Of a stretch of DNA of 44,012 nucleotides, positions 2,220-18,357 are shown piece by piece. The DNA is taken from positions 1 to 44,012 of the forward strand of contig DYMH01000016.1 in NCBI GenBank assembly GCA_020721645.1, in the 5' to 3' direction. The notes beneath the pieces are model-generated. The model saw nothing but the letters and a program-made list of their open reading frames with translations. It made no database searches and had not been told where the DNA came from. Made by a program: the position numbers and the translations under genes. The DNA comes from Draconibacterium orientale. Its GTDB lineage: Bacteria > Bacteroidota > Bacteroidia > Bacteroidales > JAADGE01. Every line of letters begins with the position of its first letter. Position 1 is the first letter of the stretch.

Positions 2220-2275
2220 TTTAATAATAAACGAACGATTTGTTTTAAAGTCGTTCTAATAAAAAAAATCTTGCT

Positions 2276-2304
2276 GTTCGGCAAAGGCTCAGCCTTTGTC
2301 GAAC
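2276..2304. repeat. Solitary palindromic element, core GGCTCAGCC
   Basis: A 13-bp stem (GTTCGGCAAAGGC against GCCTTTGTCGAAC, one G/T mismatch) with a 3-nt loop, lying between two convergent genes. It shares its plan (TTCGGC, AGGCTC, GCCT, GTCGA) with the palindrome array at 6533-6723, so it looks like a single member of the same dispersed family. It has no adjacent T-run, so a terminator role is less likely. Confidence 0.7.
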
Positions 2305-2331
2305 AATTTTATAAACCAACTCCATTGTTAC

Positions 2332-5806: not shown

Positions 5807-6463
5807 TTAATGTCCTAATTTGTGCAATTGGTCTGACAGAAAGATTTTTTGTTTGAAATCGTGATACAGGATATAAATCATTGCTTTTGCAACTTTTGAA
5901 GCCTCGATGCCCCGATATTTTTTTAGTTTTCCGAAGAGTATCATGCCAAAGAGGCGTGCCAATATTTTTCCGAGGCTTTCAAAAAAACGAAATTCGGTTC
6001 GCTTCCCGAAAAGCAACGATGGGCGAACAATAGCAAGTTTTTGAAAGGGAATTTCCTGAATTTTTTTCTCCATTTCGCCTTTGATGCGGAGATAGTAATT
6101 CGTTGAATTTTCATCGGCTCCGAGCGAAGAAACGACTGCAAAATTTTTAACACCCTTATCATAAGCAATTTGTGCCGTTTTAACGACTAAATCACAATCG
6201 ATTTGTTCCATTATTTCTACCGAACCTGCTTTTTTTATGGTTGTTCCCAAACATGAATACATCTCATCGGCTCCCGAAAAAAAATCCCAAGATGCAATAC
6301 TCTTAAAATCAACTACATATTCCTTTATTTTGGGACTTTTGTATGCCGATTTTTGTCTGACAGGCAATCGAATTTCGGAATAAAGCTCGGAACGGATTAA
6401 TTCTTCAACAGTCGAACTTCCGACAAGTCCGCTTGCTCCCAACACAACTGCTGTTTTAGGCAT
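5807..6463 (-). CDS. NAD(P)-binding TIP30/HTATIP2-like oxidoreductase
   Basis: Atypical SDR of 218 residues. It has the N-terminal dinucleotide loop VLGASGLVGSSTVEEL, then a YSCLGTTIKKAGS segment and FAVVSSLGADENS (catalytic Ser region), followed by YLRIKGEME with the YxxxK pair, all characteristic of HTATIP2-like bacterial proteins. The substrate is unknown. It is about 100 nt upstream of bcp. A palindrome array occupies its own upstream region. Confidence 0.82.
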   Translation of the reverse strand: MPKTAVVLGASGLVGSSTVEELIRSELYSEIRLPVRQKSAYKSPKIKEYVVDFKSIASWDFFSGADEMYSCLGTTIKKAGSVEIMEQIDCDLVVKTAQIAYDKGVKNFAVVSSLGADENSTNYYLRIKGEMEKKIQEIPFQKLAIVRPSLLFGKRTEFRFFESLGKILARLFGMILFGKLKKYRGIEASKVAKAMIYILYHDFKQKIFLSDQLHKLGH

Positions 6464-6532
6464 ATTTTTATGATATTTTGAAAAAATGACAAATTATGTC
6501 CGAATGTCATTTAGCTAAGAAATGTATTTGCT

Positions 6533-6723
6533 GTTCGGCTTAGGCTCTGCCTAAGTCGATTTATCCTGACAGGCTCTGCCTGTCTGTCAAAGCAAGGCAG
6601 AGCCTTGCAAAATAAGTTCGGCTTAGGCTCTGCCTAAGTCGATTTATCTTGACAGGCTCTGCCTGTCAAAGCAAGGCAGAGCCTTGCAAAATAAGTCCGA
6701 CTGAGGCAGAGCCTCAGCCGAAC
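6533..6723. repeat. Array of seven short palindromes with GGCTCTGCC/GGCAGAGCC cores
   Basis: About 190 nt made almost wholly of hairpin units: 6535-6559 and 6618-6642 (TCGGCTTAGGC, TCT, GCCTAAGTCGA), 6568-6584 and 6651-6667 (GACAGGC, TCT, GCCTGTC), 6592-6608 and 6671-6687 (GCAAGGC, AGA, GCCTTGC), and 6698-6720 in reverse polarity. The first three units repeat with a period of 83 nt. Stems differ between units but keep compensating pairs, so the structure is conserved rather than the exact sequence. It fills the 345-nt gap between two minus-strand genes, which otherwise holds nothing recognisable. A related single copy is at 2276-2304. Confidence 0.85.
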
Positions 6724-6808
6724 ACATGCTTAATTAAACGACAGTGAATTATGTCCTTCTGATTTTTTCTCTAAAATAAAGTAACAAAACAGATATATTT
6801 CTCGAAGT

Positions 6809-7717
6809 TTAATCACGCTTGTAAACTGTTTTATTTTCGGGTATTGTATGTTTCCAACGTTTATGAGTCCAAACCCAATTTTCGGGTCTTTTACGAATCA
6901 CTTTTTCGAGCAATTCGGCAAATCGTAATGTAATTTCGCCTGCCGGAAGTTCTTTTGGATTTTCGGCAAGAACATGAATGTTGATGATGTAATGACCTCG
7001 TTTTTGGCGTTGAACTTCAAAATACAATACCGGAATATCGAACATTTTGGCGTAATTTTCGGGTCCGTGCAGAAAACCTGTCGGAATATCAAAAAAATCG
7101 ACCCAAAAGGCTTTTTCGGTATTCGACGGGCTTTGGTCGGCAACCATAAAATAGCACGCCGGGATTTCGGTTTTTTCGCGAAAATGAACCAAGGTGTTGT
7201 AAATTGATACCATTTTTACACCAAATTTCATTCTGTTTTTTTTAACATCTGAATCTATGAAATTATTTGTCAGAGGTTTATACAAGACCGAGGATTTATG
7301 TTTTAAATAGGTTGTGGCTGCAGCCGCTCCCCATTCCCAATTCGAAAAATGTGCTGTGAGCCCAATCACACTCTTGCCCTGAGAAAAATAGTTTTCGAGA
7401 ATATCAAGATTTTGCATATTAAACCGACTTGCCATATTTTTCTTCGACATCGTATAACCTTTGATACTTTCGACAAGCATATCGCTTAAATTTTTATAAT
7501 TTTTACGAATGATTGTGTTTTTTTCTTTTTCCTGCATTTCGGGAAAACAGCGGTCGAGATTCGATTGAATCACTTTTTTTCTGTATCCTACAATACGATA
7601 TAAGACGAAAGCCGTAAAATCTGAAAACCAATAAATTACGAACATCGGAACAAATTTCATCGAAATAACCAATAATTTATAGAAGATGAAACTGAGAAGA
7701 AATGCAATTTTTTTCAT
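6809..7717 (-). CDS. Lysophospholipid acyltransferase family (LpxL/HtrB-type lipid A acyltransferase)
   Basis: Inner-membrane acyltransferase of 302 residues, probably adding a secondary acyl chain to lipid A. It has an N-terminal hydrophobic anchor (FLLSFIFYKLLVISMKFVP), the catalytic-type segment GLTAHFSNWEWGA (in HtrB/LpxL the motif is HxxxxE/D), then VLYKPLTNNFID and a VADQSPSN segment typical of the family, ending in WVWTHKRWKH. It lies 48 nt downstream of the heptose-phosphate kinase gene on the same strand, fitting a small LPS-assembly operon. Confidence 0.88.
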   Translation of the reverse strand: MKKIAFLLSFIFYKLLVISMKFVPMFVIYWFSDFTAFVLYRIVGYRKKVIQSNLDRCFPEMQEKEKNTIIRKNYKNLSDMLVESIKGYTMSKKNMASRFNMQNLDILENYFSQGKSVIGLTAHFSNWEWGAAAATTYLKHKSSVLYKPLTNNFIDSDVKKNRMKFGVKMVSIYNTLVHFREKTEIPACYFMVADQSPSNTEKAFWVDFFDIPTGFLHGPENYAKMFDIPVLYFEVQRQKRGHYIINIHVLAENPKELPAGEITLRFAELLEKVIRKRPENWVWTHKRWKHTIPENKTVYKRD

Positions 7718-14604: not shown

Positions 14605-15582
14605 TTAACAATGTTTTCCGTCGAATGGTTGATCTTTTAATTTATGTCCGTTTTGATCATATTTATAGAAACCTTGCAGGGTTTTTCGTCCCAACCGTTG
14701 TGCTCTGACCAATTTTTTCAGTATCGGAGAGGGTTTGTATTTTCGGTCGCCGAATTCGTTGTACAAATTATCCATCCAACGTTCAACGCGGTCGAGACCG
14801 ATTTTGTCTGCCATTTCGAAAGGTCCGAGAGGTAAACCGAGACCGTTTTTCATAACAAAATCAATATCTTCAATGGTGCTGACTCCTTCCATCAACAAAG
14901 CACAGGCTTCGCCAATAAGTGCAACGCCGAGTCGAACGCTTACCAAACCGGGCGATTCTTCGACATGAATCGGAATTTTATTGACCAATTGTGTGAATTT
15001 ACGAACGCTTTCGCATGTTTCCGGAGTGGAATACAATCCGGTAACGACTTCCACGATTCGTGCTCCGGGAGAGGTTGTCGAAAAATGAAGACTGACACAA
15101 CGTTTTTTGTGTTTCAAACCGGCAGCAAGTTCTGTAATAACAACTGTTGATGAGTTTGTAGCGATAATTGCGTGTTCGCTCACGTGTGCCTCAATTTCCT
15201 GAAAAATTGCCTTTCTAATGTCTTTACTTCTTTCACGTTGTTTGGACAGAATGGATTCTAAAACCAAGTCGCACTCGGCAAAATCGGAATATTTGAGTGT
15301 TCCGGTAATTCGCGACATGATGAGTTTTTTCTCGGACCCCGTCATGCCCCAATGGTTAATTTTTTCTTCCAAAGCGTCCGACATTTCCGAAATCGCTTGG
15401 TCTATCATTTGCTGACTGAGTTCCAAAAAAACAACTTCGATGCCGCGAGATGCAATCATTAAAGTAATGGATTGTCCGGTAGCTCCGCCGCCTACAATTC
15501 CAACTTTGGAAAACAGTACTTTTGGTTTATCTTTTTTGCTTAACGCATAATTTTCAATAGATTCGATAATCGGCTCTGCCAT
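14605..15582 (-). CDS. 3-hydroxyacyl-CoA (3-hydroxybutyryl-CoA) dehydrogenase family protein
   Basis: A 325-residue NAD(P)-dependent dehydrogenase that would interconvert 3-hydroxybutyryl-CoA and acetoacetyl-CoA in butyrate-type metabolism. It has the Rossmann loop VGIVGGGATGQS, ATNSSTVVITELA (substrate Ser region), SLHFSTTSPGARIVEVV with the His-Glu dyad, and the C-terminal helical domain GLGLPLGPFEMADKIGLD, closing with GRKTLQGFYKY. Two deviations stand out: the usual HFFNPVP segment reads HFSTTSP, and the usual PGFxxNR reads PGLVSVR, so the active-site Asn is Val by my alignment. It may therefore be a divergent subfamily with another acyl-CoA substrate. The gene lies between pta and ackA. 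Confidence 0.85.
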   Translation of the reverse strand: MAEPIIESIENYALSKKDKPKVLFSKVGIVGGGATGQSITLMIASRGIEVVFLELSQQMIDQAISEMSDALEEKINHWGMTGSEKKLIMSRITGTLKYSDFAECDLVLESILSKQRERSKDIRKAIFQEIEAHVSEHAIIATNSSTVVITELAAGLKHKKRCVSLHFSTTSPGARIVEVVTGLYSTPETCESVRKFTQLVNKIPIHVEESPGLVSVRLGVALIGEACALLMEGVSTIEDIDFVMKNGLGLPLGPFEMADKIGLDRVERWMDNLYNEFGDRKYKPSPILKKLVRAQRLGRKTLQGFYKYDQNGHKLKDQPFDGKHC

Positions 15583-16857: not shown

Positions 16858-17250
16858 GTGTTTCTGCAAGAACCGGTATCTACTGCAATGCAAAGTGTGG
16901 TGTTTCTGCAAGAAAATGTATCCGGTGCAATGCAAAGTGTGATGTTTCTGCAAGAAACCGCAAGCGTGCGTGGTAAAACATGGTGCTTCTGCAAGAAAAT
17001 GTATCTATTACAACACAAAGTGAGGTGTTTCTGCAAGAAAATGTATCTATTGCAATACAAAGCGAGGTGTTTCTGCAAGAAAATGTATCTATTGCAATGC
17101 AAAACGTGAGGTTCTGCAAGAAAACACGCCTGTTACCTTGCAAAATGCAATGTTTCTGCAAGAAAATGTACTTGTTGTAATGCACAGCGAGGTGTTTCAG
17201 CAAGAAATTATATCCGGTGCAATACAAAATGTGGTGTTTCGCCAAAAAGC
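16858..17250. repeat. 42-nt tandem repeat array, about nine units plus a partial
   Basis: Units start at 16858 and run head to tail with period 42 (two units are 41). The shared part begins GTGTTTCTGCAAGAAAATGT and ends in GCAATGCAAAGNG. The last, partial unit starts at 17234. Because 42 is a multiple of three, several frames on both strands stay open for stretches. The + frame reads VFLQENVSIAMQSE per unit but shifts at the 41-nt units, so I do not call a gene. Just before it (16797-16845) lies GGAAATGTGGAAATTTGG-type repeat. Nothing else is recognisable in the gap between pta and the RM relic. Confidence 0.9.
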
Positions 17251-17478
17251 CGAATGCTAAACTTTGCAGACAGCGAGTTTTATCAATCGTCTGTTTTGTC
17301 CATTTCCCTTGTTATTTCAACAGTTCGCAGACTAACGGTGCAAACTCACGCTTTAAATTCAATTCGTATTTTTTGCGATATGCGGGGTTGTGCAACACGG
17401 CATAGACGTAATGGAAAATGTCCGTTTTTGTGATTTCCGTTTCGTTTTCCGTTTGTGGGGACAGGGCGTTTCCCGTTT

Positions 17479-17506
17479 GTAGGGACAGGGCATGCCCTGT
17501 CCCTAC
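17479..17506. repeat. 28-nt REP-like palindrome, copy 1
   Basis: A perfect palindrome with half-site GTAGGGACAGGGCA. Identical copies are at 17634-17661 and 18045-18072, and a half-copy lies at about 17455-17467. All lie within 600 bp of the RAYT gene, as expected for its target or substrate element. Confidence 0.9.
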
Positions 17507-17633
17507 GGCGATGGCGACGGCGTGCGTTGATTCCGCACCGTAATAATAATTTCGGAATTGTTCCAAACCCCAATCCGTAATATTTTCGAGGCGGTTGCCC
17601 GATTTGTCGTAACGGTACAGGCGTTTCCCGTTT

Positions 17634-17661
17634 GTAGGGACAGGGCATGCCCTGTCCCTAC
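17634..17661. repeat. 28-nt REP-like palindrome, copy 2
   Basis: Second perfect copy, inside the second unit of the 155-bp duplication. It reads as GTGHALSLQ in one minus-strand frame and RACPVPTN in another. Confidence 0.9.
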
Positions 17662-17775
17662 GGCGATGGCGACGGCGTGCGTTGATTCCGCACCGTAATA
17701 ATAATTTCGGAATTGTTCCAAACCCCAATCCGTAATATTTTCGAGGCGGTTGCCCGATTTGTCGTAACGGTACAG

Positions 17776-18357
17776 TTATTCTGAATAAAATTTATCTTCC
17801 TGCCATTTAGCCGGATTGTTTGTTATGTATTCCGTAATGAATTCATACGATTCCGTGTTGCGAATTATATTGTCGTAAAACCGTGTTTGCCATTCAAATT
17901 GGTATCCCAAGCGGTGTGCATGTTTTGTTACCGCCGATTTATACGACCCGATTATTGACGATACCGAATTTTTTCCAATATTTTGAAAACGGTTTTGCCC
18001 CGTAATATTTTCGGATTTTTCGGATTGTTCGGATTGTTCGGATTGTAGGGACAGGGCATGCCCTGTCCCTACGTTCGTATCGGAATCGTCAAAATTTGTA
18101 ATCACAATAATTCCGTGAATATGGTTCGGCATAACGGCAAATTCGCCCAATTCAATATTTTTTGCATGATTTTTAATTTCATACCATAATATATCGGCAA
18201 TAACACCAATGTTGGACAATTTCATTTCGGCATTTTCAATTTTTCCGAAATAGTGCAATCTGTTTTTGGTGCAAATTGTGATAAAATACGATGCAGCCCA
18301 ACGGTAATCCCACGTTTGTAACCGAGGCGTTTTTCTGTCTTTTAATTTGTTGTTCAT
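17776..18357 (-). CDS. REP-associated tyrosine transposase (RAYT, Y1/HUH family)
   Basis: A 193-residue single-strand DNA transposase-like protein of the IS200/IS605-related RAYT group, thought to mobilise REP-type palindromes. The HUH pair is H79-I-H81 in FAVMPNHIHGIIVI. The N-terminus YRWAASYFITICTKNRLHYFG and the C-terminal SYKSAVTKHAH, WQTRFYDNIIRN, YITNNPAKW segments are typical, with Tyr161 or Tyr171 as catalytic candidates. Its own coding sequence contains one palindrome copy (18045-18072) read in frame as VGTGHALSLQ (residues 96-105) and a SEQSEQSEKSE run; the core motifs are unaffected. The gene is set exactly inside the type ISP RM relic: its ATG overlaps that fragment's stop (ATGA), and the relic resumes right after its stop. 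Confidence 0.9.
   Translation of the reverse strand: MNNKLKDRKTPRLQTWDYRWAASYFITICTKNRLHYFGKIENAEMKLSNIGVIADILWYEIKNHAKNIELGEFAVMPNHIHGIIVITNFDDSDTNVGTGHALSLQSEQSEQSEKSENITGQNRFQNIGKNSVSSIIGSYKSAVTKHAHRLGYQFEWQTRFYDNIIRNTESYEFITEYITNNPAKWQEDKFYSE
18045..18072. repeat. 28-nt REP-like palindrome, copy 3, inside the RAYT gene
   Basis: Perfect copy of the palindrome at 17479-17506, here within the transposase coding region without breaking its frame. It is flanked by a short 9-nt-type tandem (CGGATTGTT variants, 18012-18044). Confidence 0.9.

Follow-up and report, generated by a model that had tools for sequence, protein, structure and literature searches.

How REP palindromes spread is still debated; RAYTs are assumed to be the agent, and direct evidence of their transposition is thin. 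The BOX elements of Streptococcus pneumoniae resemble the array described here in being small repeated elements with a modular interior in which the number of units varies; to our knowledge, their sequence is unrelated to that of the array and they have no link to a RAYT. GTAG/CGTC REPs and RAYTs flanked by TIRs are treated in the available portion of PMC3733652, and MITEs are reviewed in PMC10969869 (also available in part). The accessible text of Quentin et al. 2018 (PMC6006769) describes RAYT group 5, or TnpA-REP subclass 2.6, of Bacteroidetes, with 'atypical' flanking structures that have copies elsewhere; as far as that text goes, the present system shares with this subclass a similar RAYT length, matching HUH and Y motifs and flanking hairpins with copies in the genome, but differs in that most copies outside the RAYT locus lie between IS4-type TIRs. 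The BrickBuilt elements, or MITE464, of Porphyromonas gingivalis (Klein et al. 2015, PMC4596501, accessible portion) are MITEs with internal repeats, and they too have TIRs that match an insertion sequence and occupy intergenic positions, but their TIRs are IS5-type, their direct repeats of 23 or 41 nt are not hairpin REP units, and that portion of the article states no link to a RAYT. IS4-family insertion sequences and their MITEs have in common with the array the TIR sequence, the 10-bp duplication and, in relatives, an IS4-family DDE transposase; the interior here consists of RAYT-type hairpin units rather than a deleted transposase gene, and the stretch shared with the insertion sequence copies examined is only about the terminal 16-23 bp. 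The open-licence PMC literature yielded no description of an IS4-type MITE that contains REP units of the RAYT type, and as far as could be searched the element is a variant not previously described, although MITEs and REPs are kinds already known. Very probably it is a MITE of the IS4 type whose cargo is two REP units of the RAYT type (subclass 2.6-like), inverted relative to each other.

The window, which is the whole stretch of 44,012 nucleotides that was analysed, contains at 6533-6723 the seven hairpins that an earlier note on this DNA had reported. All seven GGCTCTGCC cores were located (starts 6543, 6572, 6596, 6626, 6655, 6675 and 6705, of which the third, sixth and seventh are in minus orientation), compared to 0.02 expected by shuffling in the whole window, and the array folds far more strongly than shuffled sequences (z of -13.5 as RNA and -11.4 as DNA). 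The hairpins follow the order H1 H2 H3 H1 H2 H3 H4. A higher-order period of 83 nt had been claimed and holds for successive copies of H1 and H2, but those of H3 are 79 nt apart because one H2 has an additional TGTC; both H2 variants of single copies, with and without the extra TGTC, are present in the window copy. H4 is indeed a reversed closing unit, but the third and sixth cores are reversed too. The core is not confined to the array: in the 3.83-Mb assembly of the window's genome it occurs 117 times (66 forward and 51 reverse) versus 6 times (3 and 3) for the reversed control pattern. An eighth core in the window, at 15572, is part of an ORF and lacks hairpin arms. The neighbours of the array are ORFs at 5807-6463 and 6809-7717, both on the minus strand. 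The relative that had been placed at 2276 is real; the left TIR-side match of this probable worn copy scores 16 versus a shuffled maximum of 13, which is significant, and its right TIR side scores 8, which was equalled by 58 of 500 shuffles and is not significant. The interval 6533-6723 encloses the hairpins but leaves out the ends of the element and the target duplication: the hairpins fill the inside of a MITE of 245 bp, which is bounded by 18-bp TIRs and flanked by an exact target duplication of 10 bp, as follows.

6492..6501, unstranded: target-site duplication, left copy AATTATGTCC, matching the right copy at 10 of 10 positions
6502..6519, plus: left TIR GAATGTCATTTAGCTAAG, three mismatches to the family consensus CAATGTCGTTTAGTTAAG
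6502..6746, plus: whole MITE, 245 bp, with no overlapping ORF of at least 90 aa
6534..6559, plus: hairpin H1, first copy, TTCGGC-TTA-GGCTCTGCC-TAA-GTCGA
6560..6567, plus: linker between H1 and H2 with TATC, a motif kept in units of other genomes
6568..6584, plus: hairpin H2, first copy, GACAGGCTCTGCCTGTC
6592..6608, minus: hairpin H3, first copy, reversed
6617..6642, plus: hairpin H1, second copy
6651..6667, plus: hairpin H2, second copy
6671..6687, minus: hairpin H3, second copy, reversed
6695..6723, minus: hairpin H4, reversed closing unit
6729..6746, minus: right TIR, reading CACTGTCGTTTAATTAAG on the minus strand, two mismatches to the consensus
6747..6756, unstranded: target-site duplication, right copy AATTATGTCC
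2247..2327, plus: probable worn one-hairpin relative, hairpin at 2276-2306

Dispersed copies of the array were found in the genome by blastn with the window array as query, and their flanks end alike, with CAATGTCGTTTAGTTAAG on one side and CTTAACTAAACGACATTG on the other. The TIR occurs at 79 sites with three or fewer mismatches, compared to 11 for the control. Pairing of TIRs within the examined loci retained 32 elements of 75-328 bp, with exclusion of seven longer pairings (at least 395 bp, with poor duplications). Among flank lengths from 4 to 15, agreement between the two sides of the 32 elements is found only at 10 (mean identity 0.83 versus 0.47 for the control), and the flanking 10-mers match at eight or more of ten positions in 25 of the 32 versus 35 of 992 control pairings; a good 10-bp duplication is absent from the other seven. 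The interior is of the REP type in 23 elements, with one to seven detectable cores. The typical REP-type copy is 162-167 bp long and has four hairpins, of which H3 and H4 are reversed and the other two forward, and a 75-bp copy on contig C124 is a single long palindrome with one hairpin. All 22 REP-type elements examined in this respect lie clear of ORFs of at least 90 aa, and the order of the genes on either side varies. The 20 other genomes of the family yielded no empty site; in them the sole homologue of the neighbouring gene is distant (42%). The window element has the traits of a MITE: it is short, non-coding and bounded by TIRs, it belongs to a multicopy, dispersed set, and the duplication is of one length. 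Other interiors, many of them palindromic, are present in nine of the 32 own-genome elements, and TIR-bounded elements of other genomes also carry other interiors, with folding z from -13.8 to +1.1, not all of it strong. The own-genome loci that combine this TIR chassis with other, mostly palindromic interiors are L091, L129, L141 and L112 (240-242 bp), L098, L100 and L116, L144, and L131.

TIRs of 18 bp together with a 10-bp target duplication make a DDE transposase of the IS4 family, and not a RAYT, the most likely agent that spreads the array directly. The TIR is present with one mismatch at most in 17 of 60 genomes (the window's own included), and the control pattern in none. An internally deleted insertion sequence in genome G027 led to a complete one of 1498 bp in G009, which has a TIR at each end, a duplication that matches at 10/10, and a transposase of 399 aa that scores 153 bits against the NCBIfam IS4 family NF033592 (cutoff 115). 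A search for transposases of this type in 393 genomes of the order yielded 17 matches in 11 genomes: a TIR-like end (at least 16 of 18 positions) accompanies 16 of the 17, nine have both ends and a 10/10 duplication (four of these in one genome), and the match at L359 has a best end of 13/18 or less. The IS4-family insertion sequences of related genomes are approximately 1.4-1.5 kb long, with TIR and duplication as in the MITE. No transposase for this hairpin family is in the window, as had been noted, and an autonomous IS4 copy with these ends gave no match in the assembly of the window's genome; the partner may therefore have been lost or left unassembled. The IS4-like (DDE_Tnp_1) transposases on contigs C189 and C264 were set aside as partners, no matching TIR pair having been shown around them (ends examined for C189 alone). 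A 1057-bp element in genome G044 (L165, 462-1518) has the same TIRs and a 10/10 duplication; its ORFs are all short (80 and 72 aa), and it may represent a MITE with passenger DNA.

The hairpins point to a RAYT. The second RAYT whose presence elsewhere had been suspected is on contig C179 of the same genome, where a gene encoding a 186-aa protein (109.9 bits against NF047646 REP_Tyr_transpos, cutoff 80) lies between arrays of hairpins of the array type, and H1H2 of the MITE aligns to this flank, linker included, with a score of 39 versus a shuffled maximum of 15. A run of N within the hairpin array that adjoins this RAYT (L049, approximately 2300-2400) makes the number of units there unreadable. 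The C179 RAYT, with its motifs NHIH and YIHNNP and its length, fits subclass 2.6 or group 5 (NH[LIV]H, YIH[QN]NP, about 179 aa), of which a cognate RAYT flanked by the hairpins, with copies elsewhere, is also characteristic; it has no WQ motif, and the subclass is therefore given as 2.6-'like' only. H1H2 and H3H4 are two inverted REP units, as in a REPIN or BIME, with feet of GTTCGGC/GTCGA in place of the canonical GTAG/GTGG tetranucleotide. In 30 RAYT loci out of 107 places listed, flanking hairpins (core AGG[CT]-N3-5-[AG]CCT, arms of at least 7 bp, within 400 nt) are present at 11 of 11 loci of close relatives of the C179 RAYT (at least 65% identity) versus 1 of 19 loci of more distant ones, below that line (Fisher p 2e-7), the line having been picked after inspection of the data. 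A 166-bp copy searched in 393 genomes matched 22 (the window's own included), in the others mostly by its hairpins and not its TIRs; two candidates were scored per genome, which makes unit counts per genome lower bounds. In five of the 21 other genomes (G057, G117, G148, G153, G234), a hairpin match and a RAYT match are separated by no more than 200 nt, and G265 has free-standing four-hairpin units without the TIR. The window itself contains at 17776-18357 a RAYT-like gene (50 bits, family cutoff 80) near several GTAGGGACAGGGC-type palindromes, which differ from the array hairpins, as stated earlier; it is probably a decayed, different RAYT system. Irregular repeats of an TTTCTGCAAGAAAATGTATC-like unit at 16860-17260 are followed by a near-duplicate stretch at approximately 17480-17780.

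A RAYT in the same genome with matching flanking hairpins, and units without TIRs in other genomes, would be expected if the array were an ordinary RAYT-mobilised REP cluster (BIME or REPIN) with incidental TIR-like flanks, but the TIRs and the 10-bp duplication are common to separate copies, and identical TIRs also enclose unrelated interiors as well as transposase genes of the IS4 family; this explanation is very unlikely.

Conservation of the hairpins was assessed with 29 distinct units at 21 loci of other genomes, collected with a search pattern in which the 5' foot and the cores are already prescribed. The count leaves out L154 and the loci of a named contig scan, where the pattern fixes part of the stem; among the matches listed from that scan, most are scattered single matches in unrelated genomes. 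The arms of H1 are paired in 26 of the 29 units (shuffled mean 6.7, maximum 15) and those of H2 in 19 (shuffled mean 6.5, maximum 13), and therefore the hairpin structure is conserved between genomes; the linker contains TAT[CT] in 25 units (shuffled mean 8.5, maximum 15), and 26 units have a G.T pair within the first stem. The earlier statement that stems vary yet keep pairing holds between units of the window and between genomes, but not for H4, in which one position of the stem fails to pair in 16 of the 26 own-genome copies. In these 26 aligned copies, 92.2% of cells are paired versus 91.8% after shuffling, H4 is paired in 79%, and 856 cells contain two double changes, which is little more than inherited pairing. 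Selection on structure within the window's own genome was dropped as a proposal and is not claimed, because conservation of structure across the 26 copies is weak.

Strong folding, pairing maintained across genomes and three terminator-like sites in 600 nt (0.6 in shuffles), with H1 and H4 terminator-like, could be read as signs of a regulatory RNA or terminator cluster with its structure under selection; yet pairing within the genome is barely above chance, the terminator-like sites are without long T tracts, the Rfam matches are 12 microRNA-like ones that all fall far under gathering scores, and the copies are intergenic among mixed gene orders, which leaves this explanation highly improbable. 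A non-mobile tandem-repeat expansion of a chance palindrome would account for the internal duplication of 83/79 nt, but is contradicted by the many dispersed copies with common ends and by the 10-bp duplication, and has next to no likelihood.

According to the preferred explanation, an IS4-type MITE with a REP interior, the array is a non-autonomous DDE-type transposon with TIRs of about 18 bp that leaves a 10-bp target duplication; an IS4-family insertion sequence that shares its ends, of the kind known from related genomes, would provide the transposase in trans. The interior consists of two double-hairpin REP units in inverted orientation (H1-TATC linker-H2 ... H3-linker-H4). A REP pair of the RAYT-flanking kind is predicted to have been captured between IS4-type ends and then spread by transposition into intergenic DNA, and in the window copy H1-H3 would have been duplicated, from four hairpins to seven, for which the simplest route would be slippage or unequal exchange at the feet of H1 and H4, which resemble each other. 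One short element appears to combine two unrelated mobile systems, the IS4 family and RAYT. Within transcripts, these hairpins could serve as bidirectional terminator-like or mRNA-protecting structures, probably as a side effect; the element is regarded as chiefly selfish and may influence where transcripts end.

A second dispersed repeat in the window's genome, of approximately 155 bp (142-156 bp between GTAACGAAATAA-type inverted ends, which differ from the MITE ends), bears an H1-type hairpin and a GAGGCTTTGCCTC hairpin. It is found at 14 loci (L015, L021, L023, L024, L026, L036, L038, L040, L044, L046, L047, L052, L054, L058) and also at L216; the duplication test gave an excess of 0.12-0.16 over the control, with a possible CTAAG-like duplication. 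A metagenome-assembled genome labelled Draconibacterium orientale has relatives of both the MITE-type elements and the second repeat.

For one clade of Bacteroidales RAYTs, the REP unit can now be read: its two hairpins have AGGC-N3-GCCT cores, the linker between them contains TAT[CT], and a G.T pair is conserved in the stem of the first hairpin. The 10-bp duplication, a mark of DDE transposition, on REP-type units provides a concrete second route by which REPs spread. A wider pattern can be proposed only tentatively: in Bacteroidales, one IS4-type TIR chassis might repeatedly capture and disperse palindromic REP-type units of different RAYT families, which would uncouple the spread of REPs from the RAYT and make REPs a cargo traded between HUH-type and DDE-type systems, with two possible transposases per element.
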